64,000 bases of DNA, taken from the NCBI GenBank assembly GCA_963965975.1, contig OZ014414.1, positions 4,253,501 to 4,317,500 of the forward strand, read 5' to 3'. The notes under the pieces are model-generated. The model did no database searches, was not told the origin of the DNA, and saw nothing but the letters and a program-made list of their open reading frames with translations. Made by a program: the position numbers and the translations under genes. This stretch comes from Xestospongia bergquistia. Taxonomy: Eukaryota > Porifera > Demospongiae > Haplosclerida > Petrosiidae. Shown here piece after piece: positions 20,771-52,601 of the stretch; positions within the stretch are counted from its first letter, which is position 1, and each line of letters begins with the position of its first letter.

Positions 20771-23700
20771 AAAGTCTTTAAGATAAAGACTTTAGATGGT
20801 TTAGACTATTGAGAGAAGTTCATAAAGTAAACTGCTCAGTCTAAAGGACTTTATGGCACTAACTAAATAAACAGCTATTAACAGTTTTGTAAGTTAGTTT
20901 GCATTAACGCTCTAAAGTCTTTAAGTTAAAGACTTTAGAAAGTTTAGACTATTGACAGAATTTTATAAAGTAAACTGCTCAGTCTAAAGGACTTTATGGC
21001 ACTAACTAAATAAACAGCTATTAACAGTTTAGTAAGTTAGTTTGCATTAACGCTCTAAAGTCTTTAAGTTAAAGACTTTAGAAGGTTTATACTATTGAGA
21101 AAATGTTATCAAGTAAACTGCTCAGTGTAAAGGACTTTATTGCACTAACTAATAAAGAGCTATTAAGAGTTTGCTAAGTTATTTTGCTTTAACGCTCTAA
21201 AGTCTTTAAGTTAAAGACTTTAGAAGGTTTAGACTATTGAGAGAAGTTTATAAAGTAAACTGCTCAGTCTAAAGGGCTTTATGGCACTAACTAAATAAAC
21301 AGCTATTACCAGTTTAGTAAGTTAGTTTGCATTAACGCTCTAAAGTCTTTAAGTTAAAGACTTTAGAAGCTTTAGACTATTGAGAGAAGTTTATAAAGTA
21401 AACTGCTCAGTCTAAAGGACTTTATGGCACTAACTAAATAAACAGCTATTAACAGTTTAGTAAGTTAGTTTGCAATAACACTCTAAGGTCTTTAAGTTGA
21501 AGACTTTAGAAGGTTTAGACTATTGAATGACGCTTATAAAGTAAACTGGTCTCTCTAAAGGACTTTATGGAACTAACTAAATAAACAGCTATTAACAGTT
21601 TAGTAAGTTAGTTTGCATTAACGCTCTAAAGTCTTTTAGTTAAAGACTTCAGAAGGTTTAGACTATTGAGAGAAGTTTATAAAGTAAACTGCTCAGTCTA
21701 AAGGACTTTATGGCACTAACTAAATAAACAGCTATTAACAGTTTAGTAAGTTAGTTTGCATTCACGCTCTAAAGTCTTTAAGTTGAAGACTTTAGAAGGG
21801 TTAGACTATTGAGTGACGCTTATAAAGTAAACTGGTCTCTCTAAAGGACTTTAAGGCTATAACTAAATAAACAGCTATTAAGAGTTTAGTAAGTTACTTT
21901 GCATTAATGCTCTAAAGTCTTTAAGTTAAAGACTTTAGAAGGTTTAGACTATTGAGAGAAGTTTATAAAGTAAACTGCTCAGTCTAAAGGACTTTATGGC
22001 ACTAATTAAATAAACAGCTATTAACAGTTTAGTAAGTTAGTTTGCCTTAACGCTCTAAAGTCTTTAAGTTTAAGACTTTAGAAGCTTTAGACTATTGAGA
22101 GAAGTTTATAAAGTAAACTGCTCAGTCTAAAGGACTTTATGGCAATAACTAAATAAGCAGCTATTAACAGTTTAGTAAGTTAGTTTGCATTAACGCTCTA
22201 ACGTCTTTAAGTTAAAGACTTTAGAAGCTTTAGACTATTCAGAGTTTAGAAAGTAAACTGATCAGTCTAAAGGACTTTACGGCACTAACTAAATAAACAG
22301 CTATTAACAGTTTAGTAAGTTAGTTTGCATTGACGCTCTAAAGTCTTTAAGTTAAAGACTTTAGAAGGTTTAGACTATTGAGAGAAGTTTATAAAGTAAA
22401 CTGCTCAGTCTAAAGGACTTTATGGCACTAACTAAATAAACAGGTATTAACAGTTTAGTAAGTTACTTTGCATTAACGCTCTAAAGTCTTTAAGTTAAAG
22501 ACTTTAAATTGTTTAGACTATCGAGAGAAGTTTATAAAGTAAACTGCTCAGTCTAAAGGACTTTATGGCACTAACTAAATAAACAGCTATAAACAGTTTA
22601 GTAAGTTAGTTTGCATGAACGCTCTAAAGTCTTTAAGTTAAAGACTTTAGAAGGTTTAGACTATTGAGAGAAGTTTATAAAGTAAACTGCTCAGTATAAA
22701 GGACTCTATGGCACTAACTAAATAAACAGCTATTAACAGTTTAGTAAGTAAGTTTGCGTTAACACTCTAAAGTCATTAAGTTAAAGACTTTAGAAGGTTT
22801 AGACTATTGAGTGAATCTTACAAAATAAACTACTCCGTCTAAAGGACTTTATGGCACTAACTAAATAAACAGCTATTAACAGTTTAATAAGTTAGTTTGC
22901 ATTAACGCTCTAAAGTCTTTAAGTTAAAGACTTTAGAAGCTTTAGACTATTGAGAGAAGTTTATAAAGTAAACTGCTCAGTCTAAAGGACTTTATGGCAC
23001 TAACTAAATAAACAGCTATTAACGGTTTAGTAAGTTAGTTTGCATTAACGCTCTAAAGTCTTTAAGTTAAAGACTTTAGAAGGTTTAGACTATTGAGAGA
23101 AGTTTATAAAGTAAACTGCTCAGTCTAACGGACTCTATGGCACTAACTAAATAAACAGCCATTAACAGTTTAGTAAGTTAGTTTGCATTAATGCTCTAAA
23201 GTCTTTAAGTTAATGTCTTTAGAAGGTTCAGACTATTGAGAGAATTTTATAAAGTAAACTGCTAAGTCTAAAGGACTTTATGGCACTATCTAAATGAGCA
23301 GCTATTAACAGTTTAGTAAGTAAGTTTGCATTAACACTCTAAAGTCATTAAGTTAAAGACTTTAGATGGTTTAGACTATTGAGTGACGCTTATAAAGTAA
23401 ACTGTTCTCTCTAAAGGACTTTATGGCAATAACTAAATAAACAGCTATTAAAAGATTAGTAAGTTAGTTTGCATTCACGCTCTTAAATCTTTAAGTTAAA
23501 GACTTTAGAAAGATTACACTATTGAGAGCAGTTTATAAAGTAAACTGCTCAGTCTAAAGGACTCTATGGCACTTCTAAATAAACAGCTATTAACAGTTTA
23601 GTAAGTAAGTTTGCATTAACACTCTAAAGTCATTAAGTTAAAGACTTTAGAAGGTTTAGACTATTGAGTGAATCTTACAAAATAAACTTCTCCTTCTAAA

Positions 23701-26679
23701 GCACTTTATGGCACTAACTAAATAAACAGCTATTAACAGTTTAATAAGTTAGTTTGCATTAACGCTCTAAAGTCTTTAAGTTAAAGACTTTAGAAGCTTT
23801 AGACTATTGAGTGAAGTTTATAAAGTAAACTGCTCAGTCTAAAGGACTTTATTGCACTAACTAAATACACAGCTATTAACAGTTTAGTAAGTTAGTTTGC
23901 ATTAACGCTCTAAAGTCTTTAAGTTAAAGACTTTAGAAAGTTTAGACTATTGAGAGAAGTTTATAAAGTAAACTGCTCAGTCTAAAGGACTTTATGGCAC
24001 TAACTAAATAAACAGCTATTAACGGTTTAATAAGTTAGTTTGCATTAACGCTCTAAAGTCTTTAAGTTAAAGACTTTAGAAGGTTTAGACTATTGAGAGA
24101 AGTTTATAAAGTAAACTGCTCAGTCTAACGGACTCTATGGCACTAACTAAATAAACAGCCATTAACAGTTTAGTAAGTTAGTTTGCATTAATGCTCTAAA
24201 GTCTTTAAGTTAATGTCTTTAGAACGTTCAGACTATTGAGAGAAGTTTATAAAGTAAACTGCTAAGTCTAAAGGACTTTATGGCACTAACTAAATTAGAA
24301 GCTATTAACAGTTTAGTAAGTAAGTTTGCATTAACACTCTAAAGACTTTAAGTTAAAGACTTTAGAAGGTTTAGACTATTGAGAGAAGTTTATAAAGTAA
24401 ACTGCTCAGTCTAAAGGAGTCGATGGCACTAACTAAATAAAAAGCTATTAACAGTTTAGTAAGTTAGTTTGCATTAACACTCTAAAGTCTTTAAGTTAAA
24501 GACTTTAGAAGGTTTAGACTATTGAGAGAAGTTTATAAAGTAAACTGCTCAGTCTAAAGGACTTTATGGCACTAACTGAATGAGCAGCTATTAACAGTTT
24601 AGTAAGTAAGTTTGCATTAACACTCTAAAGTCATTAAGTGAAAGACTTTAGAAGGTTTAGACTATTGAGTGAATCTTACAAAATAAACTACTCCGTCTAA
24701 AGGACTTTATGGCACTAACTAAATAAACAGCTATTAACAGTTTAATAAGTTAGTTTGCATTAACGCTCTAAAGTCTTTAAGTTAAAGACTTTAGAAGCTT
24801 TAGACTATTGAGAGAAGTTTATAAAGTAAACTGCTCAGTCTAAAGGACTTTATGGCACTAACTAAATAAACAGCTATTAACAGTTTAGTAAGTTAGTTTG
24901 CATTAACGCTCTAAAGTCTTTAAGTTAAAGACTTTAGAAAGTTTAGACTATTGAGAGAAGTTTATAAAGTAAACTGCTCAGTCTAAAGGACTTTATGGCA
25001 CTAACTGAATGAGCAGCTATTAACAGTTTAGTAAGTAAGTTTGCATTAACACTCTAAAGTCATTTAGTTAAAGACTTTAGAAGGTTTAGACTATTGAGTG
25101 AATCTTACAAAATAAACTACTCCGTCTAAAGGACTTTATGGCACTAACTAAATAAACAGCTATTAACAGTTTAATAAGTTAGTTTGCATTAACGCTCTAA
25201 AGTCTTTAAGTTAAAGACTTTAGAAGCTTTAGACTATTGAGAGAAGTTTATAAAGTAAACTGCTCAGTCTAAAGGACTTTATGGCACTAACTAAATAAAC
25301 AGCTATAAACAGTTTAGTAAGTTAGTTTGCATTAACGCTCTAAAGTCTTTAAGTTAAAGACTTTAGAAGGTTTAGACTATTGACAGAAGTTTATAAAGTA
25401 AACTGCTCAGTATAAAGGACTCTATGGCACTAACTAAATAAACAGCTATTAACAGTTTAGTAAGTAAGTTTGCGTTAACACTCTAAAGTCATTAAGTTAA
25501 AGACTTTAGAAGGTTTAGACTATTGAGTGAATCTTACAAAATAAACTACTCCGTCTAAAGGACTTTATGGCACTAACTAAATAAACAGCTATTAACAGTT
25601 TAATAAGTTAGTTTGCATTAACGCTCTAAAGTCTTTAAGTTAAAGACTTTAGAAGCTTTAGACTATTGAGAGAAGTTTATAAAGTAAACTGCTCAGTCTA
25701 AAGGACTTTATGGCACTAACTAAATACACAGCTATTAACAGTTTAGTAAGTTAGTTTGCATTAACGCTCTAAAGTCTTTAAGTTAAAGACTTTAGAAAGT
25801 TTAGACTATTGAGAGAAGTTTATAAAGTAAACTGCTCAGTCTAAAGGACTTTATGGCACTAACTAAATAAACAGCTATTAACGGTTTAGTAAGTTAGTTT
25901 GCATTAACGCTCTAAAGTCTTTAAGTTAAAGACTTTAGAAGGTTTATACTATTGAGAAAATGTTATCAAGTAAACTGCTCAGTGTAACGGACTTTATTGC
26001 ACTAACTAATAAAGAGCTATTAACAGCTTTGTAAGTTATTTTGCTTTAACGCTCTAAAGTCTTTAAGTTAAAGACTTTAGAAGGTTTAGACTATTGAGAG
26101 AAGTTTATAAAGTAAACTGCTCAGTCTAGAGGACTCTATGGCACTAACTAAATAAACAGCTCTTAACAGTTTAGTAAGTTAGTTTGCATTAACGCTCTAA
26201 AGTCTTTAAGTTAAAGACTTTAGAAAGTTTAGACTATTGAGAGAAGTTTATAAAGTAAACTGCTCAGTCTAAAGGACTTTATGGCACTAACTAAATAAAC
26301 AGCTAGTAACGGTTTAGTAAGTTAGTTTGCATTAACACTCTAAAGTCTTTAAGTTAAAGACTTTAGAAGGTTTATACTATTGAGAAAATGTTACCAAGTA
26401 ACCTGCTCAGTGTAAAGGACTTTATTGCACTAACTAATAAAGAGCTATTAACAGTTTTGTAAGTTATTTTGCTTTAACGCTCTAAAGTCTTTAGGTTAAA
26501 GACTTTAGAAGGTTTAGACTATTGAGAGAAGTTTATAAAGTAAACTGCTCAGTCTAAAGGACTTTATGGCACTAACTAAATACACAGCTATTAACAGTTT
26601 AGTAAGTTAGTTTGCATTAATCGCTCTAAAGTCTTTAAGTTAAAGACTTTAGAAGGTTTAGACTATTGAGAGAAGTTTA

Positions 26680-28390
26680 TAAAGTAAACTGTCAATCTAA
26701 AGGACTCTATGGCGCTAAATAAATAAACAGCTATTAACAGTTTAGTAAGTTAGTTTGCATTAACGCTCTAAAGTCTTTAAGATAAAGACTTTAGAAGGTT
26801 TAGACTATTGAGAGAAGTTCATAAAGTAAACTGCTTAGTCTAAAGGACTTTATGGCACTAACTAAATGATCAGCTATTAACAGTTTAGAAAGTAAGTTTG
26901 CATGAACACTATAAAGCCATTAAGTTAAAGACTTTAGAGGGTTTAGAGTATTGAGTGAATCTTACAAAATAAACTGCTCTTTCTAAAGGACTTTATGGCC
27001 TAACTAAATAAACAGCTATTAACAGTTTAGTAAGTTAGTTTGCATTAATGCTCTAAAGTCTTTAAGTTAAAGACTTTAGAAGGTTTAGACTATTGAGAGA
27101 AGTTTATAAAGTAAACTGCTCAGTCTAAAGGACTTTATGGCACTAACTATATAAACAGATATTAACAGCTTAGTAAGTTAGTTTGCATTAACACTCTAAA
27201 GTCTTTAAGTTAAAGACTTTAAAGTTTTAGACTATTGAGAGAAGTTTATAAAGTAAACTGCTCAGTCTAAAGGACTTTATGGCACTAACTAAATAAACAG
27301 CTATTAACAGTTTAGTAAGTTAGTTTGCATTAACGCTCCAAAGTCATTAAGTTAAAGACTTTAGAAGGTTTAGACTATTGAGAGAAGTTTACAAAGTAAA
27401 CTACTCAGTCTAAAGGACTCTATGACACTAACTAAATAAACAGCTATTAACAGTTTAATAAGTTAGTTTGCATTAACGCTCTAAATTCTTTAAGTTAAAG
27501 ACTTTAGAAGCTTTAGACTATTGAGAGAAGTTTATAAAGTAAACTGCTCAGTCTAAAGGACTCTAATGCACTAAATAAATAAACAGCTATTAACAGTTTA
27601 GTAAGTTAGTTTGCATTAACGCTCTAAAGTCTTTAAGATAAAGACTTTAGAAGGTTTAGACTATTGAGAGACGTTCATAAAGTAAACTGCTTAGTCTGAA
27701 GGACTTTACGGCACTAACTAAATGAACAGCTATTAACAGTTTAGTAAGTAAGTTTGCATGAACACTATAAAGTCATTAAGTTAAAGACTTTAGAGGGTTT
27801 AGAGTATTGAGTGAATCTTACAAAATAAACTGCTCTGTCTAAAGGACTTAATGGCCTAACTAAATAAACAGCTATTAACAGTTTAGTAAGTTAGTTTGCA
27901 TTAACACTCTAAAGTCTTTAAGTTAAAGACTTTAGAAGGTTTAGACTATTGAGAGAAGTTTATAAAGTAAACTGCTCAGTCTAAAGGACTTTATGGCACT
28001 AACTATATAAACAGATATGAACAGCTTAGTAAGTTAGTTTGCATTAACACTCTAAAGTCTTTAAGTTAAAGACTTTAAAGTTTTAGACTATTGAGAGAAG
28101 TTTATAAAGTAAACTGCTCAGTCTAAAGGACTTTATGGCACTAACTAAATAAACAGCTATTAACAGTTTAGTAAGTTAGTTTGCATTAACGCTCCAAAGT
28201 CTTTAAGTTAAAGACTTTAGAAGGTTTAGACTATTGAGAGAAGTTTATAAAGTAAACTACTCAGTCTAAAGGTCTCTATGACACTAACTAAATAAACAGC
28301 TATTAACAGTTTAGAAAGTTAGTTTGCATTAACGCTCTAAAGTCTTTAAGTTAAAGACTTTAGAATCTTTAGACTATTGAGAGAAGTTTA
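26680..28390 (+). repeat. six-monomer duplication in the left arm (856 bp)
   Basis: CATGAACACT at 26901 and 27757, CTAAATAAAT at 26715 and 27571, and AAAGTTTTAG at 27221 and 28078 show an 856-857 bp offset. The same doubling is present in the reversed arm at about 36550-38150. Confidence 0.75.
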
Positions 28391-30949
28391 TAAAGTAAAC
28401 TGCTCAGTCTAAAGGACTTTATGGCGCTAACTAAATGAACAGCTATTAACAGTTTAGTAAGTAATTTTGCATTAACACTCTAAAGTCATTAAGTTAAAGA
28501 CTTTAGAAGGTTTAGACTATTGAGTGAATCTTAGAAAATAAACTGCTCTGTCTAAAGGACTTTATGGCACTAACTAAATAAAAAGCTATTAAAAGTTTAG
28601 TAAGTTAGTTTGCATTAATTCTCTAAAGTCTTTAAGTTAAAGACTTTAGAAGGTTTAGACTATTGAGAGAAGTTTATAAAGTAAACTGCTCAGTCTAAAG
28701 GACTTTATGGCACTAACCAAATAAACAGGTATTAACAGTTTAGTAAGTTAGTCTGCATTAACGCTCTAAAGTCTTTATGTTAAAGACTTTAGAAGGTTTA
28801 GACTATTCAGAGCAGTTTATAAACTAAACTGCTCAGTCTAAAGGACTTTATGGCACTAACTAAATAAACAGCTATTAACAGTTTAGTAAGTTAGTTTGCA
28901 TTAACGCTCTAAAGTCTTTAAGTTAAAGACTTTAGAAGCTTTCGACTATTGAGAGAAGTTTATAATGTAAACTGCTCAGTCTAAAGGACTTTATGGCACT
29001 AATTAAATAAACAGCTATTAACAGTTTAGTAAGTTAGTTTGCATTAACGCTCTAACGTCTTTAAGTTAAAGACTTTAGAAGGTTTAGACTCTTTAGGATT
29101 TATAAAGTAAACTGCTCAGTCTAAAGGACTTTATGGCACTAACTAAATAAAAAGCTATTAACAGTTTAGTAAGTTAGTTTGCATTGACGCTCTAAAGTCT
29201 TTAAGTTAAAGACTTTAGAAGGTTTAGACTATTGAGAGAAGTTTATAAAGTAAACTGCTCAGTCTAAAGGACTTTATGGCACTAACTAAATAAACAGCTA
29301 TTAACAGTTTAGTTAGTTTTCATTAACGCTATAAAGTCTTTAAGTTAAAGACTTTAGATTGTTTAGACTATTGAGAGAAGTTTATAAAGTAAACTGCTCA
29401 GTCTAAAGGACTTTATGGCACTAACTAAATAAACAGCTATTAACAGTTTAGTAAGTTAGTTTGCATTAACGCTCTAAAGTCTTTAAGTTAAAGACTTTAG
29501 AAGGTTTAGACTATTGAGAGAAGTTTATCAAGTAAACTGCTCAGTCTAAAGGACTCTATGGCACTAACTAAATAAAAAGCCATTAACAGTTTAGTAAGTT
29601 AGTTTGCGTTAACGCTCTAAAGTCTTTAAGTTAAAGACTTTAGAAGGTTTAGACTATTGAGGGAAGTTTATAAAGTAAACTGCTCAGTCTAAAGGACATT
29701 ATGGCACTAACTAAATAAACAGCTATTAACAGCTTAGTAAGTTAGTTTGCATTAACACTCTAAAGTCTTTAAGTTAAAGACTTTAGAAGTTTTAGACTAT
29801 TGAGAGAACTTTATAAAGTAAACTGCTCAGTCTAAAGGACTTTATGGCACTAACTAAATAAACAGCTATTAACAGTTTAGTAAGATAGTTTGCATTAACG
29901 CTCTAAAGTCTTTAAGTTAAAGACTTTAGAAGGTTTAGAGTATTGAGCGAAGTTTATAAAGTAAACTGCTCAGTCTAAAGGACTTTATGGCACTAACTAA
30001 ATAAACAGCTATTAACAGTTTAGTAAGTTAGTTTGCATTAACGCTCTAAAGTCTTTAAGTTAAAGACTTTAGAAGGTTTAGACTATTGAGAGAAGTTTAT
30101 AAAGTAAACTGCTCAGTCTAAAGGTCTCTATGGCACTAACTAAATGAACTGCTATTAACAGTTTAGTAAGTTAGTTTGCATTAACGCTCTAAAGTCTTTA
30201 AGTTAAAGACTTTAGAAGGTTTAGACTATTGAGAGAAGTTCATAAAGTAAACTGCTCAGTCTAAAGGACTTTATGGCACTAACTAAATGAACTGCTATTA
30301 ACAGTTTAGTAAGTCAGTTTACGTTAACACTCTAAAGTCATTAAGTTAAAGACTTTAGAAGGTTTAGACTATTGAGTGAATCTTACAAAATAAACTGCTC
30401 TGTCTAAAGGACTTTATGGCACTAACTAATTAAACAGCTATTAACAGTTTAGTAAGTTAGTTTGCATTAACGCTCTAAAGTCTTTTAGTTAAAGACTTTA
30501 GAAGATTTAGACTATTGAGAGAAGTTTATAAAGAAAACTGCTCAGTCTAAAGGACTCTATGGCACTAACTAAATAAACAGCTATTAACAGTTTAGTAAGT
30601 TAGTTTGCATTAACGCTCTAAAGTCTTTAAGTTAAAGACTTTAGAAGGTTTAGACTACTTAGAGAAGTTTATAAAGTAAACTGCTTAGTCTAAAGGACTT
30701 TATGGCACTAACTAAATGAACAGCTATTAACAGTTTAGTAACTAAGTTTGCATTAACGCTCTAAAGTCTTTAAGTTAAAGACTTTAGAAGGTTTAGACTA
30801 TTGAGAGAAGTTTAAAAAGTAAACTGCTCAGTCTAAAGGACTCTATGGCACTAACTAAATAAACAGCTATTAACAGTTTAGTAAGTTAGTTTGCATTAAC
30901 GCTCTAAAGTCTTTAAGTTAAAGACTTTAGAAGGTTTAGACTATTGAGA

Positions 30950-31525
30950 GAAGTTCTTAAAGTAAACTGCTCAGTCTAAAGGACTTTATGGCACTAACTA
31001 AATGAACTGCTACTAACAGTTTAGTAAGTAAGTTTGCGTTAACACTTTAAAGTCATTAAGTTAAAGACTTTAGAAGGTTTAGACTATTGAGTGAATCTTA
31101 CAAAATAAACTGCTCTGTCTAAAGGACTTTATGGCACTAACTAAATAAACAGCTATTAAGAGTTTAGTAAGTTAGTTTGCATTAACGCTCTAAAGTCTTT
31201 AAGTTAAAGACTTTAGAAGGTTTAGACTATTGAGAGAAGTTCTTAAAGTAAACTGCTCAGTCTAAAGGACTTTATGGCACTAACTAAATGAACTGCTACT
31301 AACAGTTTAGTAAGTAAGTTTGCGTTAACACTTTAAAGTCATTAAGTTAAAGACTTTAGAAGGTTTAGACTATTGAGTGAATCTTACAAAATAAACTGCT
31401 CTGTCTAAAGGACTTTATGGCACTAACTAAATAAACAGCTATTAACAGTTTAGTAAGTTAGTTTGCATTAACGCTCTAAAGTCTTTAAGTTAAAGACTTT
31501 AGAAGGTTTAGACTATTGAGAGAAT
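30950..31525 (+). repeat. two-monomer duplication (286 bp)
   Basis: The pair marked by GTTCTTAAAG (30953 and 31239) and AACTGCTACTAACAG is present twice in a row. The mirrored arm does not show this extra pair at the equivalent place. Confidence 0.65.
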
Positions 31526-32180
31526 TTTATAAAGAAAAGTGCTCAGTCTAAAGGACTCTATGGCACTAACTAAATAAACAGCTATTACCAGTTTAGTAAG
31601 TTAGTTTGCATTAACGCTCTAAAGTCTTTAAGTTAAAGACTTTAGAATGTTTAGACTACTGAGAGAAGTTTATAAAGTAAAACTGCTCAGTCTAAAGGAC
31701 TTTATGGCACTAACTAACTGAACAGCTATTAACACTTTAGTAACTAAGTTTGCATTAACACTATAAAGTCATTAAGTTAAAGACTTTAGAAGGTTTAGAC
31801 TATTTAGTGAATCTTACAAAATAAACTGCTCAGTCTAAAGGACTTTATGGCACTAACTAAATAAACAGGTATTAACAGTTTAGTAAGTTTGTTCGCATTA
31901 ACGCTCTAAAGTCTTTAAGTTAAAGACTTTAGAAGTTTTAGACTATTGAGAGAAGTTTATAAATTAGACTGCTCAGTCTAAATGACTTTATGGCACTAAC
32001 TAAATAAACAGCTATTAACAGTTTAGTAAGTTAGTTTGCATTAACGCTCTAAAGTCTTTCAGTTAAAGACTTTAGAAAGTTTAGACTATTGACAGAAGTT
32101 TATAAAGTAAACTGCTCGGTCTAAAGGACTTTATGGCACTAACTAAATAAACAGCTATTACCAGTTTAGTAAGTTAGTTT

Positions 32181-32229
32181 GCATTAACGCTCTAAAGTCT
32201 TTAACTGAAAGACTTTAGAGCGTTAATGC
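32181..32229. repeat. palindrome centre at the first orientation switch
   Basis: GCATTAACGC...TCTTT at 32181-32202 is the exact reverse complement of 32208-32229, with AACTG between. Pairing continues outward with almost no mismatches (19 more bases on each side before the first). The switch falls inside dyad A of the monomer, with the arms extended by normal monomer sequence of opposite orientation. Confidence 0.9.
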
Positions 32230-32399
32230 AAACTAACTTACTAAACTGTTAATAGCTGTTTATTTAGTTAGTGCCATAAAGTCATTTAGACGGAGCAGTT
32301 TAATTTATAAACTTCTCTCAATAGTCTAAAGCTTCTAAAGTCTTTAACTTAAAGACTTTAGAGCGTTAATGCAAAAAAACTTACTAAACTGTTAATAGC

Positions 32400-34790
32400 T
32401 GTTTATTTAGTTAGTGCCATAAAGTCCTTTAGACAGAGCAGTTTATTTTGTAAGATTCACTCAATAGTCTAAACCTTCTAAAGTCTTTAACTTAATGACT
32501 TTAGAGTGTTAACGCAAACTTACTTACTAAACTGTTAATAGCTGTTCAGTTAGTTAGTGCCATAAAGTCCTTTAGACTGAGCAGTTTACTTTATAAACTT
32601 CTCTCAGTAGTCTAAACATTCTAAAGTCTAACTTAAAGACTTTAGAGCATTAATGCAAACTAACTTACTAAACTGGTAATAGCTGTTTATTTAGTTAGTG
32701 CAATAGAGTCCTTTAGACTGAGCACTTTTCTTTATAAAATTCTCTCAATAGTATAAACCTTCTAAAGTCTTTAACTTAAAGACTTTAGAGCGTTAATGCA
32801 AACTAACTTACTAAACTGTTAATAGCTGATTATTTAGTTAGTGCCATAAAGTCCTTTAGACAGAGCAGTTTATTTTGTAAGATTCACTCAATAGTCTAAA
32901 CCTTCTAAAGTCTTTAACTTAATGACTTTAAAGTGTTAACGCAAACTTACTTACTAAACTGTTAATAGCAGTTCATTTAGTTAGTGCCATAAAGTCCTTT
33001 AGACTGAGCAGTTTACTTTAAGAACTTCTCTCAATAGTCTAAACCTTCTAAAGTCTTTAACTTAAAGACTTTAGAGCGTTAATGCAAACTAACTTACTAA
33101 ACTGTTAATAGCTGTTTATTTAGTTAGTGCCATAGAGTCCTTTAGACTGAGCAGTTTACTTTTTAAGCTTCTCTCAATAGTCTAAACCTTCTAAAGTCTT
33201 TAACTTAAAGACTTTAGAGCGTTAATGCAAACTTAGTTACTAAACTGTTAATAGCTGTTCATTTAGTTAGTGCCATAAAGTCCTTTAGACTAAGCAGTTT
33301 ACTTTATAAACTTCTCTCAGTAGTCTAAACCTTCTAAAGTCTTTAACCTAAAGACTTTAGAGCGTTAATGCAAACTAACTTACTAAACTGTTAATAGCTG
33401 TTTATTTAGTTAGTGCCATAGAGTCCTTTAGACTGAGCACTTTTCTTTATAAAATTCTCTCAATAGTCTAAACTTTCTAAAGTCTTTAACTTAAAGACGT
33501 TGGAGCGTTAATGCAAACTAACTTACTAAACTGTTAATAGCTGTTTAATTAGTTAGTGCCATAAAGTCCTTTAGACAGAGCAGTTTATTTTCTAAGATTC
33601 ACTCAATAGTCTAAACCTTCTAAAGTCTTTAACTTAATGACTTTAGAGTGTTAACGCAAACTTACTTACTAAACTGTTAATAGCTGTTCAGTTAGTTAGT
33701 GCCATAAAGTCCTTTAGACTGAGCAGTTTACTTTATAAACTTCTCTCAGTAGTCTAAACATTCTAAAGTCTAACTTAAAGACTTTAGAGCATTAATGCAA
33801 ACTAACTTACTAAACTGGTGATAGCTGTTTATTTAGTTAGTGCAATAGAGTCCTTTAGACTGAGCACTTTTCTTTATAAAATTCTCTCAATAGTATAAAC
33901 CTTCTAAAGTCTTTAACTTAAAGACTTTAGAGCGTTAATGCAAACTAACTTACTAAACTGTTAATAGCTGATTATTTAGTTAGTGCCATAAAGTCCTTTA
34001 GACAGAGCAGTTTATTTTGTAAGATTCACTCAATAGTCTAAACCTTCTAAAGTCTTTAACTTAATGACTTTAAAGTGTTAACGCAAACTTACTTACTAAA
34101 CTGTTAATAGCAGTTCATTTAGTTAGTGCCATAAAGTCCTTTAGACTGAGCAGTTTACTTTAAGAACTTCTCTCAATAGTCTAAACCTTCTAAAGTCTTT
34201 AACTTAAAGACTTTAGAGCGTTAATGCAAACTAACTTACTAAACTGTTAATAGCTGTTTATTTAGTTAGTGCCATAGAGTCCTTTAGACTGAGCAGTTTA
34301 CTTTTTAATCTTCTCTCAATAGTCTAAACCTTCTAAAGTCTTTAACTTAAAGACTTTAGAGCGTTAATGCAAACTTAGTTACTAAACTGTTAATAGCTGT
34401 TCATTTAGTTAGTGCCATAAAGTCCTTTAGACTAAGCAGTTTACTTTATAAACTTCTCTCAGTAGTCTAAACCTTCTAAAGTCTTTAACCTAAAGACTTT
34501 AGAGCGTTAATGCAAACTAACTTACTAAACTGTTAATAGCTGTTTATTTAGTTAGTGCCATAGAGTCCTTTAGACTGAGCACTTTTCTTTATAAAATTCT
34601 CTCAATAGTCTAAACTTTCTAAAGTCTTTAACTTAAAGACGTTGGAGCGTTAATGCAAACTAACTTACTAAACTGTTAATAGCTGTTTAATTAGTTAGTG
34701 CCATAAAGTCCTTTAGACAGAGCAGTTTATTTTGTAAGATTCACTCAATAGTCTAAACCTTCTAAAGTCTTTAACTTAATGACTTTAGAG
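32400..34790 (-). repeat. eight-monomer higher-order duplication (1143 bp)
   Basis: Two consecutive blocks of about 1143 bp share private variants: GTTCAGTTAG at 32543 and 33686, AAACTGGTAATAG and AAACTGGTGATAG near 32672 and 33815, and AAGACGTTGGAGCG near 33494 and 34636. The left arm holds only one equivalent block. Confidence 0.78.
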
Positions 34791-35599
34791 TGTTAACGTA
34801 AACTTACTTACTAAACTGTTAAAAGCAGTTCATTTAGTTAGTGCCATAAAGTCCTTTAGACTGAGCAGTTTACTTTATGAAATTCTCTCAATAGTCTAAA
34901 CCTTCTAAAGTCTTTAACTTAAAGAATTTAGAGCGTTAATGCAAACTAACTTCCTAAACTGTTAATAGCTGTTTATTTAGTTAGTGCCATAGAGTCCTTT
35001 AGACTGAGCAGTTTACTTTATAAACTTCTCTCAATAGTCTAAACCTTCTAAAGTCTTTAACTTAAAGACTTTAGAGCGTTAATGCAAACTAACTTACTAA
35101 ACTGTTAATAGCTGTTTATTTAGTTAGTGCCATAAAGTCCTTTAGACTGAGCAGTTTACTTTATAAACTTCTCTCAATAGTCTAAACCTTCTAAAGTCTT
35201 TAACTTAAAGACTTTAGAGCGTTAATGCAAACTATCTTACTAAACTGTTAATAGCTGTTTATTTAGTTAGTGCCATAAAGTCCTTTAGACTGAGCAGTTT
35301 ACTTTATAAAGTTCTCTCAATAGTCTAAAACTTCTAAAGTCTTTAACTTAAAGACTTTAGAGTGTTAATGCAAACTAACTTACTAAGCTGTTAATAGCTG
35401 TTTATTTAGTTAGTGCCATAATGTCCTTTAGACTGAGCAGTTTACTTTATAAACTTCCCTCAATAGTCTAAACCTTCTAAAGTCTTTAACTTAAAGACTT
35501 TAGAGCGTTAAAGCAAACTAACTTACTAAACTGTTAATGGCTCTTTATTTAGTTAGTGCCATAGAGTCCTTTAGACTGAGCAGTTTACTTGATAAACTT

Positions 35600-38500
35600 C
35601 TCTCAATAGTCTAAACCTTCTAAAGTCTTTAACTTAAAGACTTTAGAGTGTTAATGCAAACTAACTTACTAAACTGTTAATAGCTGTTTATTTAGTTAGT
35701 GCCATAAAGTCCTTTAGATTGAGCAGTTTACTTTATAAACCCTCAAGAGTCTAAACCTTCTAAAGTCTTTAACTTAAAGACGTTAGAGCGTTAATGCAAA
35801 CTAACTTACTAAACTGTTAATAGCTGTTTCTTTAATTAGTGCCATAAAGTCCTTTAGACTGAGCAGTTTACTTTAGAAATTTCTCTCTCAATAGTCTAAA
35901 GCTTCTAAAGTCTTTAACTTAAAGACTTTAGAGTGTTAATGCAAACTAACTTACTAAACTGTTAATAGCTGTTTATTTAGTTAGTGCCATAAAGTCCTTT
36001 AGACTGAGCAGTTTAGTTTATAAACTGCTCTCAATAGTCTACACCTTCTAAAGTCTTTAACATAAAGACTTTAGAGCGTTAATGCAGACTAACTTACTAA
36101 ACTGTTAATACCTGTTTATTTGGTTAGTGCCATAAAGTCCTTTAGACTGAGCAGTTTACTTTATAAACTTCTCTCAATAGTCTAAACCTTCTAAAGTCTT
36201 TAACTTAAAGACTTTAGAGAATTAATGCAAACTAACTTACTAAACTTTTAATAGCTGTTTATTTAGTTAGTGCCATAAAGTCCTTTAGACAGAGCAGTTT
36301 ATTTGTAAGATTCACTCAATAGTCTAAACCTTCTAAAGTCTTTAACTTAATGACTTTAGAGCGTTAATGCAAACTTACTTACTAAACTGTTAATAGCTGT
36401 TCATTTAGTTAGCGCCATAAAGTCCTTTAGACTGAGCAGTTTACTTTATAAACTTTTCTCAATAGTCTAAAGTTTCTAAAGTCTTTAACTTAAAGACTTT
36501 AGATCGTTAATGCAAACTAACTTTCTAAACTGTTAATAGCTGTTTATTTAGTTAGTGTCATAGAGTCCTTTAGACTGAGTAGTTTACTTTATAAACTTCT
36601 CTCAATAGTCTAAACCTTCTAAAGTCTTTAACTTAAAGACTTTGGAGCGTTAATGCAAACTAACTTACTAAACTGTTAATAGCTGTTTATTTAGTTAGTG
36701 CCATAAAGTCCTTTAGACTGAGCAGTTTACTTTATAAACTTCTCTCAATAGTCTAAAACTTTAAAGTCTTTAACTTAAAGACTTTAGAGTGTTAATGCAA
36801 ACTAACTTACTAAGCTGTTAATATCTGTTTATATAGTTAGTGCCATAAAGTCCTTTAGACTGAGCAGTTTACTTTATAAACTTCTCTCAATAGTCTAAAC
36901 CTTCTGAAGTCTTTAACTTAAAGACTTTAGAGCATTAATGCAAACTAACTTACTAAACTGTTAATAGCTGTTTATTTAGTTAGGCCATAAAGTCCTTTAG
37001 ACAGAGCAGTTTATTTTGTAAGATTCACTCAATACTCTAAACCCTCTAAAGTCTTTAACTTAATGACTTTATAGTGTTCATGCAAACTTACTTACTAAAC
37101 TGTTAATAGCTGTTCATTTAGTTAGTGCCATAAAGTCCTTTAGTCTAAGCAGTTTACTTTATGAACTTCTCTCAATAGTCTAAACCTTCTAAAGTCTTTA
37201 TCTTAAAGACTTTAGAGCGTTAATGCAAACTAACTTACTATACTGTTAATAGCTGTTTATTTATTTAGTGCCATAGAGTCCTTTAGACTGAGCAGTTTAC
37301 TTTATAAACTTCTCTCAATAGTCTAAAGCTTCTAAAGTCTTTAACTTAAAGAATTTAGAGCGTTAATGCAAACTAACTTATTAAACTGTTAATAGCTGTT
37401 TATTTAGTTAGTGTCATAGAGTCCTTTAGACTGAGTAGTTTACTTTATAAACTTCTCTCAATAGTCTAAACCTTCTAAAGTCTTTAACTTAATGACTTTG
37501 GAGCGTTAATGCAAACTAACTTACTAAACTGTTAATAGCTGTTTATTTAGTTAGTGCCATAAAGTCCTTTAGACTGAGCAGTTTACTTTATAAACTTCTC
37601 TCAATAGTCTAAAACTTTAAAGTCTTTAACTTAAAGACTTTAGAGTGTTAATGCAAACTAACTTACTAAGCTGTTAATATCTGTTTATATAGTTAGTGCC
37701 ATAAAGTCCTTTAGACTGAGCAGTTTACTTTATAAACTTCTCTCAATAGTCTAAACCTTCTAAAGTCTTTAACTTAAAGACTTTAGAGCATTAATGCAAA
37801 CTAACTTACTAAACTGTTAATAGCTGTTTATTTAGTTAGGCCATAAAGTCCTTTAGACAGAGCAGTTTATTTTGTAAGATTCACTCAATACTCTAAACCC
37901 TCTAAAGTCTTTAACTTAATGACTTTATAGTGTTCATGCAAACTTACTTACTAAACTGTTAATAGCTCTTCATTTAGTTAGTGCCATAAAGTCCTTTAGA
38001 CTAAGCAGTTTACTTTATGAACTTCTCTCAATAGTCTAAACCTTCTAAAGTCTTTATCTTAAAGACTTTAGAGCGTTAATGCAAACTAACTTACTAAACT
38101 GTTAATAGCTGTTTATTTATTTAGCGCCATAGAGTCCTTTAGACTGACAGTTTACTTTATAAACTTCTCTCAATAGTCTAAACCTTCTAAAGTCTTTAAC
38201 TTAAAGACTTTAGAGCGATTAATGCAAACTAACTTACTAAACTGTTAATAGCTGTTTATTTAGTTAGTGCCATAAAGTCCTTTAGACTGAGCAGTTTACT
38301 TTATAAACTTCTCTCAATAGTCTAAACCTTCTAAAGCCTTTAACCTAAAGACTTTAGAGCGTTAAAGCAAAATAACTTACAAAACTGTTAATAGCTCTTT
38401 ATTAGTTAGTGCAATAAAGTCCTTTACACTGAGCAGTTTACTTGGTAACATTTTCTCAATAGTATAAACCTTCTAAAGTCTTTAACTTAAAGACTTTAGA

Positions 38501-41400
38501 GTGTTAATGCAAACTAACTTACTAAACCGTTAATAGCTGTTTATTTAGTTAGTGCCATAAAGTCCTTTAGACTGAGCAGTTTACTTTATAAACTTCTCTC
38601 AATAGTCTAAACTTTCTAAAGTCTTTAACTTAAAGACTTTAGAGCGTTAATGCAAACTAACTTACTAAACTGTTAATAGCTGTTTATTTAGTTAGTGCCA
38701 TGAAGTCCTTTAGACTGAGCAGTTTACTTTATAAACTTCTCTCAATAGTCTAAAGCTTCTAAAGTCTTTAACTTAAAGAATTTAGAGCGTTAATGCAAAC
38801 TAACTTATTAAACTGTTAATAGCTGTTTATTTAGTTAGTGCCATAAAGTCCTTTAGACGGAGTAGTTTATTTTGTAAGATTCACTCAATAGTCTAAACCT
38901 TCTAAAGTCTTTAACTTAATGACTTTAGGGTGTTAATGCAAACTTACTTACTAAACTGTTAATAGCTGTTCATTTAGTTAGTGCCATAAAGTCCTTTAGA
39001 CTGAGCAGTTTACTTTATAAACTTCTCTCAATAGTCTAAATCTTCTAAAGTCTTTAACTTAAAGACTTTAGAGCGTTAATGCAAACTAACTTACTAAACT
39101 GTTAATAGCTGTTTATTTAGTTAGTGCCATAGTGTCCTTTAGACTGAGCAGTTTACTTTATAAACTTCTCTCAATAGTCTAAACCTTCTAAGGTCTTTAA
39201 CTTAAAGACTTTAGAGCGTTAATGCAAACTAACTTACTAATCTGTTAATAGCTGTTTATTTAGTTAGTGCCATAAAGTCCTTTAGACTGAGCAGTTTACT
39301 TTATAAACTTCTCTCAATAGTCTAAACCTTCTAAAGTCTTTAACTTAAAGACTTTAGAGCGTTAATGCAAACTAACTTACTAAACTGTTAATAGCTGTTT
39401 ATTTAGTTAGTGCCATAAAGTCCTTTAGACTGAGTAGTTTATTTTGTAAGATTCACTCAATAGTCTAAACCTTCTAAAGTCTTTAACTTAATGACTTTAG
39501 TGTATTAATGCAAACTTAGTTACTAAACTGTTAATAGCTGTTCATTTAGTTAGTGCCATAAAGTTGTTTAGACTGAGCATGTTACTTAGAAACTTCTCTC
39601 AATAGTCTAAACCTTCTAAAGTCTTTAACTTAAAGACTTTTGAACGTTAATGGAAACTAACTAAACTGTTAATAGCTCTTTATTTAACTAGTGCCATAAA
39701 GTCCTTTAGACTGCGCAGTTTACCTTATAAACTTCTCTCAATAGTCTAAACCTTCTAAAGTCTTTAACTTAAAGACTTTAGAGCGTCAATGCAAACTAAC
39801 TTACTAAACTGTTAATAACTGTTTATTTAGTTAGTGCCATAAAGTCCTTTAGACTGAGCAGTTTACTTTATAAATCCTCAAGAGTCTAAACCTTCTAAAG
39901 TCTTTAACTTAAAGACTTTAGAGCGGTAATGCAAACTAACTTACTAAGCTGTTAATAGCTGTTTTTTTAATTAGTGCCATAAATTCCTTTAGACTGAGCA
40001 GTTTAATTTATAAACTTCTCTCAATAGTCTAAAGCTTCTAAAGTCTTTAACTTAAAGACTTTAGAGCGTTAATGCAAACTAACTTACTAAACTGTTAATA
40101 GCTGTTTATTTAGTTAGTGCCATAAAGTCCTTTAGACTGAGCAGTTTAGTTTATAAACTGCTCTCAATAGTCTAAACCTTCTAAAGTCTTTAACATAAAG
40201 ACTTTAGAGCGTTAATGCAAACTAACTTACTAAACTGTTAATAGCTGTTTATTTAGTTAGTGCCATAAAGTCCTTTAGACTGAGCAGTTTACTTTATAAT
40301 CTTCTCTCAATAGTCTAAACCTTCTAAAGTGTTTAACTTAAAGACTTTAGAGTGTTAATGCAAAGTAACTTACTAAACTGTTAATACCTGTTTATTTGGT
40401 TAGTGCCATAAAGTCCTTTAGACTGAGCAGTTTACTTTATAAACTTCTCTCAATAGTCTAAACCTTCTAAAGTCTTTAACTTAAAGACTTTAGAGAATTA
40501 ATGCAAACTAACATACTAAACTTTTAATAGCTGTTTATTTAGTTAGTGCCATAAAGTCCTTTAGACAGAGCAGTTTATTTTGTAAGATTCACTCCATAGT
40601 CTAAACCTTCTAAAGTCTTTAACTTAATGACTTTAGAGTGTTAATGCAAACTTACTTACTAAACTGTTAATAGCTGTTCATTTAGTTAGTGCCATAAAGT
40701 CCTTTAGCCTGAGCAGTTTACTTTATAAACTTCTCTCAATAGTCTAAAGCTTCTAACGTCTTTAACTTAAAGACTTTAGAGCGTTAATGCAAACTAACTT
40801 TCTAAACTGTTAATAGCTGTTTACTTAGTTAGCGCCATAGAGTCCTTTACACTGAGCAGTTTACTTTATAAACTTCTCTCAATAGTCTAAACCTTCTAAA
40901 GTCTTTAACTTAAAGACTTTAGAGCGTTAATGCAAACTAACTTACTAAACTGTTAATAGCTGTTTATTTAGTTAGTGCCATAAAGTCCTTTAGAATGAGC
41001 AGTTTACTTTATAAACTTCTCTCAATAGTCTAAAAATTCTAAAGTCTTTAACTTAAAGACTTTATAGTGTTAATGCAAACTAACTTACTAAGCTGTTAAT
41101 AGCTGTTTATTTAGTTAGTGCCATAAAGTCCTTTAGACTGAGCAGTTTACTTTATAAACTTCTCTCAATAGTCTAAACCTTCTAAAGTCTTTAACTTAAA
41201 GACTTTAGAGAATTAATGCAAACTAACTTACTAAACTGTTAATACCTGTTTATTTAGTTAGGCCATAAAGTCCTTTAGACAGAGCAGTTTATTTTGTAAG
41301 ATTCACACAATACTCTAAACCTTCTAAAGTCTTTAACTTAATGACTTTAGAGTGTTAATGCAAACTTACTTACTAAACTGATAATAGCTGTTCATTTAGT
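35600..41400 (-). repeat. dispersed duplication inside the reversed block (4133-bp offset)
   Basis: About 35.6-37.1 kb and 39.75-41.4 kb share marker monomers: a shortened unit with CCTCAAGAGTC near 35743 and 39876, GTTTAGTTTATAAACTG at 36011 and 40144, and GTTAGGCCATAAAG near 36980 and 41258. The left arm has a single equivalent, which explains much of the arm length difference. Confidence 0.65.
36550..38150 (-). repeat. six-monomer duplication in the right arm (856 bp)
   Basis: AGTGTCATAGAG near 36555 and 37411 and ACTTTAAAGTC near 36760 and 37616 recur at 856 bp. This mirrors the left-arm duplication at 26680-28390, so the doubling existed before the arms became inverted copies. Confidence 0.72.
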
Positions 41401-43378
41401 TAGTGCCATAAAGTCCTTTAGACTGAGCAGTTTACTTTATGAAATTCTCTCAATAGTCTAAACCTTCTAAAGTCTTTATCTTAAAGACTTTAGAGCGTTA
41501 ATGCAAACTAACTTACTAAACTGTTAATAGCTGTTTATTTAGTTAGTGCCATAGAGTCCTTGAGACTGAGCAGTTTACTTTATAAACTTCTCTCAATAGT
41601 CTAAAGCTGATAAAGTCTTTAACTTAAAGACTTTAGAGCGTTAATGCAAACTAACTTACTAAACTGTTAATAGCTGTTTATTTAGTTAGTGCCATAGAGT
41701 CCTTTAGACTGAGCAGTTTACTTTATAAACTTCTCTCAATAGTCTAAACCTTCTAAAGTCTTTAACTTAAAGACTTTAGAGCGTTAAAGCAAAATAACTT
41801 ACAAAGCTGTTAATAGCTCTTTATTAGTTAGTGCAATAAAGTCCGTTACACTGAGCAGTTTACTTGATAACATTTTCTCAATAGTATAAACCTTCTAAAG
41901 TCTTTAACTTAAAGACTTTAGAGCGTTAATGCAAACTAACTTTCTAAACCGTTAATAGCTGTTTACTTAGTTAGTGCCATAAAGTTCTTTAGACTGAGCA
42001 GTTTACCTTATAAACTTCTCTCAATAGTCTAAACTTTCTAAAGTCTTTAACTTAAAGACTTTAGAGCGTTAATGCAAACTAACTTACAAAACTGTTAATA
42101 GCTGTTTATTTAGTTAGTGCCATAAAGTCCTTTAGACTGAGCAGTTTACTTTATAAACTTCTCTCAATACTCTAAAGCTTCTAATGTCTTTAACTTAAAG
42201 ACTTTAGAGCGTTAATGCAAACTAACTTATTAAACTGTTAATAGCTGTTTATTTAGTTAGTGCCATAAAGTCCTTTAGACAGAGTAGTTTATTTTGTAAG
42301 ATTCACTCAATAGTCTAAACCTTCTAAAGTCTTTAACTTAATGACTTTAGGGTGTTAATGCAAACTTACTTACTAAACTGTTAATAGCTGTTCATTTAGT
42401 TAGTGCCATAAAGTCCTTTAGACTGAGCAGTTTACTTTATAAACTTCTCTCAATAGTCTAAGTCTTCTAAAGTCTTTAACTTAAAGACTTTAGAGCGTTA
42501 ATGCAAACTAACTTACTAAACTGTTAATAGCTGTTTATTTAGTTAGTGCCATAGAGTCCTTTAGACTGAGCAGTTTACTTTATAAACTTCTCTCAATATT
42601 CTAAACCTTCTAAAGTCTTTATCTTAAAGACTTTAGAGCGTTAATGCAAACTAACTTACTAAACTGTTAATAGCTGTTTATTTAGTTAGTGCCATAAAGT
42701 CCTTTAGACTGAGCAGTTTACTTTATAAACTACACTCAATAGTCTAAACCTTCTAAAGTCTTTAACTTAAAGACTTTAGAGCGTCAATGCAAACTAACTT
42801 ACTAAACTGTTAATAGCTGTATATTTAGTTAGTGCCATCGACTCCTTTAGACTGAGCAGTTTACTTTATAAACTTCTCTCAATAGTCTAAACCTTCTAAA
42901 GTCTTTAACTTAAAGACTTTAGAGCGTTAATGCAAACTAACTTACTAAACTGTTAATAGCTGTTTATTTAGTTAGTGCCATAGAGTCCTTTAGACAGAGC
43001 AGTTTACTTTATAAACTGCTCTCAATAGTGTAATCTTTCTAAAGTCTTTAACTTAAAGATTTAGAAGCGTTAATGCAAACTAACTTACTAAACTGTTAAT
43101 AGCTGTTTATTTAGTTATTGCCATAAAGTCCTTTAGACAGACCAGTTTACTTTATAAGCGTCACTCAATAGTCTAAACCTTCTAAAGTCTTTAACTTAAT
43201 GACTTTAGAGTGTTAATGCAAACTTACTTACTAAACTGTTAATAGCTGCTCATTTAGTTAGTGCCATAAAGTCCTTTAGACTGAGCAGTTTACTTTATAA
43301 ACTTCTCTCAATAGTCTGAACCTTCTAAAGACATTAACTTAAAGACTTTAGAGCATTAATGCAAACTAACTTACTAAA

Positions 43379-50033: not shown

Positions 50034-50043
50034 CCCTTTACTT
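50034..50043 (+). repeat. left piggyBac terminal inverted repeat
   Basis: CCCTTTACTT directly after TTAA, exactly complementary to 52627-52636. About 20 bp further in, CGTATACG (50063-50070) is a short palindrome that may correspond to the longer GTATAC-centred palindromes at the other end. Confidence 0.88.
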
Positions 50044-50309
50044 GCGAAATTTTGTGCGTGGGCGTATACGGTTATTACCAAATTATTTTACCCTAAGGTA
50101 ATGAGCACGTTTCTTTTACTTCGTTTTGTGTTTTACTCCTATTATCTTGATGTTTGAGGTGTTTGGAGGTCTTATTTATTTTTCAAATGGATTGATAAGA
50201 TGGTGAGTTGTTCTTAAACTGTATTTTTATTGTTTTACTTTTATATAAATGATTATGCTTGAATATATATGCCTGATTTATAAGATCGATGACTTAAAAT
50301 ACATGATAA
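50044..50309 (-). other. 3' untranslated and left subterminal region of the piggyBac element
   Basis: Non-coding AT-rich stretch between the end of the transposase frame and the left terminal repeat. It holds a likely polyadenylation signal, AATAAA, on the minus strand at 50175-50180. Confidence 0.55.
50175..50180 (-). promoter_or_regulatory. candidate polyadenylation signal of the transposase gene
   Basis: AATAAA on the minus strand, about 130 bp past the end of the longest transposase frame (50310) and still inside the element, which is where a poly(A) signal would be expected. Confidence 0.45.
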
Positions 50310-50435
50310 TTAGCTTGATATTTCTTTAGGATCAGCTGCAGGACCATAAATAGTATGATAAAGTCGGAAACAGTCATCTTCTCGACCATTATGGCAAAGA
50401 AATAACTCGCAGTCCTGGCAGTACCAAACTGTTTC

Positions 50436-51245
50436 TCAACGTCTTTGACAGTATCGGCTACAATAATGACAGCGATGAACACGCTCAGCTCCTCGTACTG
50501 GAAAGTGATGTTGGCAAAATTTTTTGACTGATGATGTTGTAGATGGACGTCCTAGTCTTTTCCTGGAGTTGTAATTGCCAATGAGATCTTTTGCAAGATC
50601 TACTCGAAACTCTTTTGTGGTGTTATACGGGAGGTTAGTGTAGTCACGACATAACAAGTACATATTTGTGATAGCGACATCAAAGAGACACCAAAATATA
50701 TATTTATAATATTTGCGACACTTCAATCTTACGTGATAATACCCTCTCAACTGATCATTACGATCGACTCCACCCATGTGTTCATTATACAATAAAACTG
50801 ACTGAGGACAAGGAAGACTTATCAGTGTACCATCCTTTTTCTTCCTTGTAACAGATGAAGTTTTGTTCGGATCTGCGTTTGTAGATGAACAAAAAAATGG
50901 CTTGGTGTCTTGCCATAGAGTGACAACAAGGTTTCTACACTGTACAGCTACATGTTGTCCCCGCTCTGGTAGACCCTTCTTGATGTACTTTTTTAAATCT
51001 GCTGGAAAACCTTTCCGATCAGCTCTCATGGTGCCATTGCTATATATGCCCAGTCGTTGTAAATCTAGCAGTAAATTTATCGAGGTAAAAAAGTTATCGA
51101 AATATACGTGATGATTTTTGTTTATTATTTTTTTAGTTAAATTTATCACAACTGATGCCCCTAGACCTCTCTCCACTCTGTCTCCTTTTTTACCGGTGTA
51201 AACATCAAATTCAGAGACGTATCCACTCTTAGATTCAGCACGCAT
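50436..51245 (-). CDS. piggyBac transposase, C-terminal part of catalytic domain (269 aa open frame)
   Basis: Open frame starting MRAESKSGYVSEFDVYTGK and ending in CHYCSRYCQRR. It contains the second and third catalytic aspartates (residue 50 in VYFDNFF; residue 161 in MGGVDRNDQ) and the family signature MRADRKGFP. The basic, proline-poor tail leads into a CxxC cysteine cluster that stops early; the next 41 codons in the same frame (50310-50435) are rich in cysteine (WYCQDCELFLC) and clearly belong to the protein. The apparent start at 51245 is only the first Met after a frameshift: the family norm is KRGFKVW followed directly by MRA. On its own this frame lacks the first catalytic aspartate, so it could not act as a transposase. 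Confidence 0.85.
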   Translation of the reverse strand: MRAESKSGYVSEFDVYTGKKGDRVERGLGASVVINLTKKIINKNHHVYFDNFFTSINLLLDLQRLGIYSNGTMRADRKGFPADLKKYIKKGLPERGQHVAVQCRNLVVTLWQDTKPFFCSSTNADPNKTSSVTRKKKDGTLISLPCPQSVLLYNEHMGGVDRNDQLRGYYHVRLKCRKYYKYIFWCLFDVAITNMYLLCRDYTNLPYNTTKEFRVDLAKDLIGNYNSRKRLGRPSTTSSVKKFCQHHFPVRGAERVHRCHYCSRYCQRR

Positions 51246-51848: not shown

Positions 51849-51957
51849 CTACAGGATTAATAATATGTATTAATACCCAAATACTTAGTAACTCAATACA
51901 ATGAAGAAATGTAAGTACTCCATATTGCTCTTAAAATATATATAACATTTCATTTAC

Positions 51958-52038: not shown

Positions 52039-52084
52039 CTGTAGTTATATCAATTATGTATCATTATTTGTGTTTAATTGTTAC

Positions 52085-52257: not shown

Positions 52258-52360
52258 CTGTTATATAAATAGTGTACTGTATACTATTGTTTTATATTTT
52301 AATGATTATTGTGAATTGATGATGAATAGCTGCTTGTTTACTTTGTGGTTTCACACTTAC

Positions 52361-52579: not shown

Positions 52580-52601
52580 TGGAAATTGCGGTTACTTTTT
52601 T

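Follow-up and report, generated by a model that had tools for sequence, protein, structure and literature searches.

In a 64,000-bp window of contig OZ014414.1 of the sponge Xestospongia bergquistia (hereafter C4; window C4:4253501-4317500), a tandem array of a 143-bp satellite is interrupted by a block of monomers that runs in the opposite orientation. Our analysis of this window suggests that the reversed block is part of an inverted duplication whose core is triplicated, sharing the anatomy of rearrangements described as duplication-triplication/inverted duplication (DUP-TRP/INV-DUP), which was probably seeded by a dyad of the satellite itself, by fold-back onto a neighboring monomer and a return to the forward strand by microhomology. 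Directly visible in the sequence are the mirrored order of the monomers, an offset of one monomer at the fold, inverted arms of 14 bp, a third copy in forward orientation, the microhomology and the phase in which the array resumes. The array and the parts that are relevant for its interpretation are located as follows.

4,065-50,033 and 52,637-64,000: the 143-bp satellite in the window.
4,065-32,204, forward strand: L, the forward satellite array, 198 monomers, from monomer cutting.
32,205-43,378, reverse strand: R, the reversed block, an inverted copy of L, 79 monomers, from monomer order.
Consensus positions 57-85 of every monomer, for example 32,191-32,219: a dyad of 29 bp, built as 14-1-14.

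For the comparison, we divided the array into its 402 monomers, comprising 198 in L, 79 in R and 125 downstream, and compared all pairs, which yielded a likeness of about 91%. R, which spans 11.2 kb and extends from 32,191/32,205 to 43,378, is the single reversed block in this array, and the GC skew is negative only in the 2-kb windows from 32,001 to 44,000 (32 windows in total). The dyad is among the least variable stretches of the monomer, with 2.8% variants per site compared to 4.9% elsewhere and only one of 114 windows showing a lower value. A maintenance of the dyad as a hairpin by compensatory change finds no support, with zero double changes as opposed to 300 single changes in 394 of the 402 monomers (eight were dropped for their length).

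The relationship between R and L is defined by rare monomer variants, which permit the assignment of a left arm with a secure and a less certain part.

25,140-32,076, forward strand: secure part of the left arm, mirrored by R 32,205-39,271.
23,170-25,139, forward strand: outer part of the left arm, which pairs with R 42,837-43,378 by rare variants, rearranged and less certain.

With R read in reverse-complement order against L and a threshold of 0.97 for the best run of five monomers, 43 of the 75 rows of R contain a run at or above this value, and 53 of 14,550 cells pass, compared to three cells in a control with R in the wrong order. In 1,000 shuffles of the monomers of R, the maximum was eight cells (in five rows), and in another 1,000 shuffles in blocks of three monomers it was 31 cells (in 23 rows). 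The wrong-order reading and both kinds of shuffles thus disfavor a mirror that arises by chance from higher-order repeats. Exact inverted matches between L and R extend up to 410, 331, 268, 253, 238 and 214 nucleotides. In the monomer map, R 32,276-39,271 pairs with L 31,991-25,140, and at the far end of the block the R monomers at 43,266, 43,123, 42,980 and 42,837 have rare variants in common with those at 23,139, 23,282, 23,425 and 24,282 in L. An import of R from elsewhere is also disfavored, since the core of R is nearest to L (for 37,400-38,200 the nearest match outside R is L with 99%, whereas the best match outside the window reaches 96%, with 20 of 2,577 candidates scored), and the best runs at the other satellite loci compared amount to 0.973 for R and 0.980 for F2, the third copy introduced below. 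The sequence-only reading of this window, which had described a palindrome of 20 kb at 23,170-43,378 with the same rare variants in mirrored order, is in these respects borne out, as is its proposal of an inverted duplication followed by divergence: the mirrored monomer map and the third copy after R rule out a simple inversion of the local array as the whole story. The proposed span holds for both junction coordinates, with the secure mirror being confined to L 25,140-32,076 and the outer part at 23,170-25,139 being less certain.

At the inner junction (junction 1), where L meets R, we refer to the L monomer that holds the junction as l0, to its neighbor one step to the left as l1 and to the first monomers of R as r1 onward.

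32,063-32,076, forward strand: right half-dyad of l1, 14 bp, the putative priming site of the fold-back.
32,077-32,190, forward strand: loop of 114 nucleotides between the inverted arms.
32,191-32,204, forward strand: left half-dyad of l0, 14 bp, complementary to 32,063-32,076, the putative folded end, with junction 1 inside.

With monomers about 91% alike, every switch of orientation in this satellite will give the impression of a palindrome over approximately its first 90 bases, and we have therefore not used local symmetry alone as evidence. The stretch 32,191-32,275 is the reverse complement of l1 (31,992-32,076) at 85 of 85 positions, including the variant 69A>C, whereas it shows three mismatches in 71 positions to l0. 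A 32-base word containing 69A>C is found at 46 exact places genome-wide and, among the matches listed, on C4 only in l1 and at junction 1. The first R monomers are one step off register, with r1 containing 42A>T, 116G>T and 135G>T of l2, r3 bearing the listed variants of l4 and r4 those of l5. Judged by the match to l1, the mismatches to l0, the word and these shared variants, R starts from l1, which places the fold one monomer out of register. This offset could instead stem from the later loss of one R monomer.

At its other end, R is followed by forward monomers that closely resemble a part of L.

43,377-43,379: junction 2, with R breaking off at monomer position 31 and the array resuming in forward orientation at 71, the center of the dyad.
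43,379-45,878, forward strand: F2, a third, forward copy of L 29,205-32,134, from a monomer-by-monomer match.
29,205-32,134, forward strand: segment b of L, which is present three times (in L, inverted in R and in F2), its left end being placed by register and not by a variant.

F2 tracks L monomer by monomer (43,452-45,878 against 29,278-32,134), and both have in common a rare deletion of four bases with 47G>T as well as 40T>A, 47G>A, 13A>C and 42A>T. It contains neither L 30,561-30,846 nor the 286-bp duplication that is peculiar to L, and it has one extra monomer at 45,164. In 14 monomer pairs the identity is 0.980 in register, compared to 0.916-0.952 after shifting by one to three monomers, and past 45,878 the match drops to background. 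Segment b is thus triplicated with its middle copy inverted, and 25,140-29,204 is found in both L and R (from 23,170 with less certainty), while the monomer at 31,992 is present in L and F2 and R holds only its left half. At junction 2, the microhomology consists of 2 bp (AA), and a 35-base word across the junction is found at one place in the genome with up to three mismatches. The phase at the end of L (70) and that at the start of F2 (71) combine to exactly one 143-bp monomer, a coincidence of about 1 in 21 for a random return at AA, given the 21 AA sites in the consensus. It follows that either dyad centers are preferred as ends or that an inversion as alternative origin gains some weight. 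Both junction coordinates of the sequence-only reading are confirmed, junction 1 within the dyad at 32,191-32,219 and junction 2 at 43,378/43,379, and its palindrome is real-looking and nearly base-resolved in the assembled letters, although it had missed the third copy past 43,378.

These features are best accommodated by a fold-back. Its break, the direction in which copying proceeded, its timing as one event and the choice of replication over another repair route are inferred. An end would have arisen at or near the center of the 29-bp dyad of l0, whose 14-nucleotide half-dyad would fold and pair with the complementary half-dyad of l1, leaving a loop of 114 nucleotides. Synthesis primed in this way would proceed backwards along about 9 kb of the array, to about 23,170, where the new end would use the 2-bp microhomology to join a forward strand of a sister or homologous copy that begins at the center of another dyad (L 29,205), so that the array would resume forward from the equivalent of this position. 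Gains and losses of whole monomers and about 1.7% substitutions would have blurred the symmetry afterwards. Fold-back replication, template switching and sister-chromatid fusion had all been proposed from the letters alone, and we favor fold-back synthesis or template switching over a symmetric fusion because R begins at l1, which leaves a spacer of one monomer. A fusion of sister chromatids (or a fold-back dicentric), followed by breakage and rejoining to a distal fragment, would also yield a palindrome and a second junction of low homology, and its end product would presumably be much alike. According to PMC3907307, a symmetric fusion is expected to leave no spacer, which agrees with the observed start of R only if a monomer was lost. 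It would also take two separate steps, and the distal arm would have to be regained. We thus regard this origin as improbable.

The divergence of the copies provides information on their relative ages. Five non-overlapping pieces, in which 5,995 bases could be aligned, contain 104 substitutions between the arms (1.7%), and within segment b the divergence is 2.2% between L and R and 1.9% between L and F2. Of 2,136 positions in 15 monomer triples, private differences were counted at 19 in L, 28 in R and 22 in F2, with four of the 19 L monomers and the extra F2 monomer left out as they form no triple. In the left part of segment b alone, the numbers are 11, 21 and 19. The three copies thus appear to be approximately equidistant, and both counts, with their star-like distribution of differences, are compatible with one event. 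The unequal length of the arms is a consequence of monomer blocks that each of them has gained or lost afterwards: L contains its own tandem duplication of 286 bp and R the following larger one.

32,451-34,733, reverse strand: tandem duplication of 1,142 bp within R, with runs of five monomers up to 0.999.

As its copies are nearly identical, this duplication is younger than the palindrome. The same data bear on whether the reversed block could be an artefact of the library or the assembly, caused by a chimeric fold-back read or a misjoin. Fold-back chimeras are a known artefact of long reads, satellites are hard to assemble, and the same contig contains a run of N at about C4:4.197 Mb. However, the arms of a chimera would be identical except for read errors, in contrast to the observed substitutions and the gains and losses of whole monomers, the young duplication is private to R, and a third, about equidistant copy would not be expected from one chimeric read. 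With the arm divergence, the private insertions and deletions and the third copy all disfavoring it, an artefact is a very remote prospect.

Several observations, in this array and elsewhere in the genome, weigh against the proposed fold-back, all evidence for which comes from the assembled sequence. Since the dyad accounts for 20% of the monomer, a single junction within it is weak evidence if taken alone. The divergence between L and R is uneven, ranging from 1.3 to 2.8% by piece, and the variant 69A>C is common to L and R and not found in F2. The outermost 542 bases of R match C4:4585226 at 98% and L at 95%, with the place in L being the 18th in the match list (32 of 3,403 candidates scored). 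C4:4585226 leads L by more than 0.004 in only two of 34 rows of R, the two outermost. A further complication is a repeated mirror within R.

About 39,558-42,836, reverse strand: R2, a second, weaker mirrored copy of L 25.1-29.4 kb.

In the monomer map, this second pass pairs R from about 39,558 to 42,693 with L 29.4-25.1 kb. With R1 denoting the first and R2 the second mirrored pass in R, private differences in four pieces over 26.3-29.3 kb amount to 27 in L, 18 in R1 and 83 in R2. R2 thus predates the split of L and R1 over most of its length, which implies that L has lost a copy or that R has used more than one template. The possibility that L is a hybrid of two copies after a contraction is unsupported by the counts over 25.1-26.3 kb (16 private differences in L, 12 in R1 and 15 in R2). 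Together with 69A>C, which is restricted to L and R, the older R2 does not fit simply into one event.

Other orientation switches in the genome add to these concerns. At C10:2808167 the orientation flips exactly at the 29-bp dyad, and there is no mirrored order within about 10 kb on each side, the best mirrored run being 0.952 compared to 0.955 in the control order.

C4:4457517-4463886: a second inverted block of 6.4 kb.

This block is neither centered on a dyad nor mirrored about its left junction. In reverse-complement order it shows 100 runs at or above 0.97 against the forward array, whereas the control order gives 29 and none of 300 shuffles more than 37. These runs are scattered over many copies of a higher-order repeat of this region. 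About the right junction, an offset of four monomers reaches 0.965, compared to 0.920-0.940 at 15 other offsets. The block may be another, blurred fold-back, which the local higher-order copies complicate. Other kinds of inversion thus seem to occur in these arrays. In favor of a fold-back at the dyad, a mini palindrome centered on it at C11:3869663 with arms of 49 bp (46 of 49 pairs) lies inside 6 kb that otherwise run one way (C11:3868001-3874000). The exact symmetric dyad flank of the type found at junction 1 is present at five places among the matches listed, and at no fewer than 234 with up to one mismatch. Two of these five are orientation switches (32,205 and C10:2808167), one is the mini fold-back and two have no switch. 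Of the opposite symmetric flank (19 places among the matches listed), none of 12 showed a switch at the dyad as judged by 60-base flanks. In this small sample of orientation switches, most of which were picked via the dyad, the mirrored duplication thus stands as an individual event that is not typical of such switches.

The main rival to the fold-back is an inversion in a previously duplicated array, where forward tandem duplications by unequal exchange would have generated the order a b a b b c before a later inversion with breaks at two monomer dyads turned the middle block. Direct repeats at a spacing of 0.3-2.7 kb are common in the array, other inverted stretches exist in the same satellite, R2 provides evidence for pre-existing tandem paralogues of the segment, and the phases at the end of L and the start of F2 would come free if both breaks had occurred at dyad centers. 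In this case, however, both breaks must have hit the boundaries of tandem duplications and, in each of two copies, almost the same monomer (l0/l1), and about 100 bases, as reckoned from the phases, must have vanished at junction 2. Moreover, L is not periodic at the required shift of 21 monomers (with values of 0.86-0.97 corresponding to background), and the similar divergence of L from R and from F2 in segment b leaves no older tandem step visible. With its two steps, this sequence of events is less parsimonious than the fold-back and in our view unlikely. Neither of the two offers a simple explanation for R2 or for the lack of 69A>C in F2.

The assembled genome comprises 146.5 Mb in 21 contigs, of which C4 accounts for 9.83 Mb. 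Among the matches listed, the satellite is found on ten contigs (C3-C8, C10, C11, C13 and C15), and since its listed places are at about 36-65% of the contig in C3, C4, C6, C8, C10 and C11, this mid-contig position suggests that it may be (peri)centromeric. Towards its right edge in this window, at 60,363-63,356, the array contains tandem duplications at a spacing of 1,569 and 1,426 bp, which are recent in light of exact matches of up to 488 bases. At 50,034-52,636 the satellite harbors a transposon insertion with TTAA on both sides and CCCTTTACTT ends, presumably a piggyBac-like element. Its two open reading frames, on the minus strand and in different frames, both match DDE_Tnp_1_7 (E-values of 1.6e-34 and 3.6e-36). 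In the non-satellite flank, a 153-bp unit is repeated twice in tandem at 3,203-3,502. Elsewhere in the assembly, a COX1 of mitochondrial type is located on C21. It requires TGA to be read as tryptophan and is directly followed by a frame resembling NADH dehydrogenase 1, a combination suggestive of a demosponge. Broken COX1-like copies reside in a nuclear contig at C6:3154917-3155898 and C6:3199148-3200446, about 0.2 Mb from the nearest satellite place on C6 among the matches listed.

The described event resembles several known systems. As in DUP-TRP/INV-DUP rearrangements, where junction 1 is located in inverted repeats and junction 2 shows microhomology of 1-4 bp in 14 of 16 cases, a segment is triplicated with its middle copy inverted and its flanks duplicated, the 14-bp arms at 32,063-32,076 and 32,191-32,204 provide the inverted repeats of junction 1, and the AA of junction 2 falls within the reported range. 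The known cases are human, associated with disease and located at low-copy repeats, whereas the event on C4 is about 2% diverged and resides in a satellite, with the 14-bp half-dyad of the monomer as inverted repeat. Fold-back inverted duplications (PMC3907307) equally contain a spacer between their arms and inverted homology at its edge. In contrast to these mostly terminal rearrangements, which are accompanied by a deletion and have a proposed dicentric stage, the event on C4 is interstitial, with the array and the contig continuing beyond it, and its spacer of one monomer is below any sequenced there (766-70,466 bp). The inverted triplications in yeast that are attributed to origin-dependent inverted-repeat amplification (ODIRA; PMC10766183) include an origin and use interrupted inverted repeats of 2-14 bp within a hundred bases. 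They share with the event on C4 the inverted triplication and the short inverted repeats at a junction, but they show such repeats at both junctions, whereas on C4 the ends at junction 2 are joined through 2 bp, with a loop of 114 nucleotides at junction 1. Similar in its setting is the macro-dyad symmetry in satellites of Tribolium, where subarrays in opposite orientation form palindromes of kilobases to tens of kilobases, as does the inverted subarray on C4, and which is documented only in this genus according to the authors (PMC13081366). Tribolium madens has conserved inversion sites that are present in thousands of instances, in contrast to the word at junction 2, whose single place in the genome argues against a recurrent site, and to the examined parts of C4, which are mostly in a single orientation.

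Orientation switches in satellite arrays have been reported from several groups, for example primates (PMC10312506) and beetles (PMC13081366), and their origin is hard to read because the monomers are alike. In the open-licence literature, we have found no report on sponge (Porifera) satellite DNA in conjunction with a centromere, and for inverted triplication with satellite DNA only human cytogenetics, as judged by title. Within the literature searched, the class of mechanism is thus known, and new are its satellite setting and its seeding by the dyad of the satellite itself. On C4, the rare variants allow both junctions to be placed with almost single-base precision and point to a fold-back at the dyad onto the neighboring monomer and a return by microhomology. 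As a tentative generalization, about which we have considerable doubt, the monomer dyad might act as engine of orientation change in this satellite, with breaks at its center and half-arms priming one monomer away. Since the half-arms are repeated every 143 bp, a complementary priming site would always be found at this distance, so that a fold-back could start anywhere in the array, with products ranging from a mini fold-back of about 50 bp, as on C11, to the palindrome of 20 kb on C4, and the ends would return in phase at another dyad center. If this is the case, satellite dyads would set the rate of inversion and turnover of the array, beyond a role in chromatin structure alone, and the structure on C4 would offer a concrete and testable link between satellite dyads and the instability of arrays.

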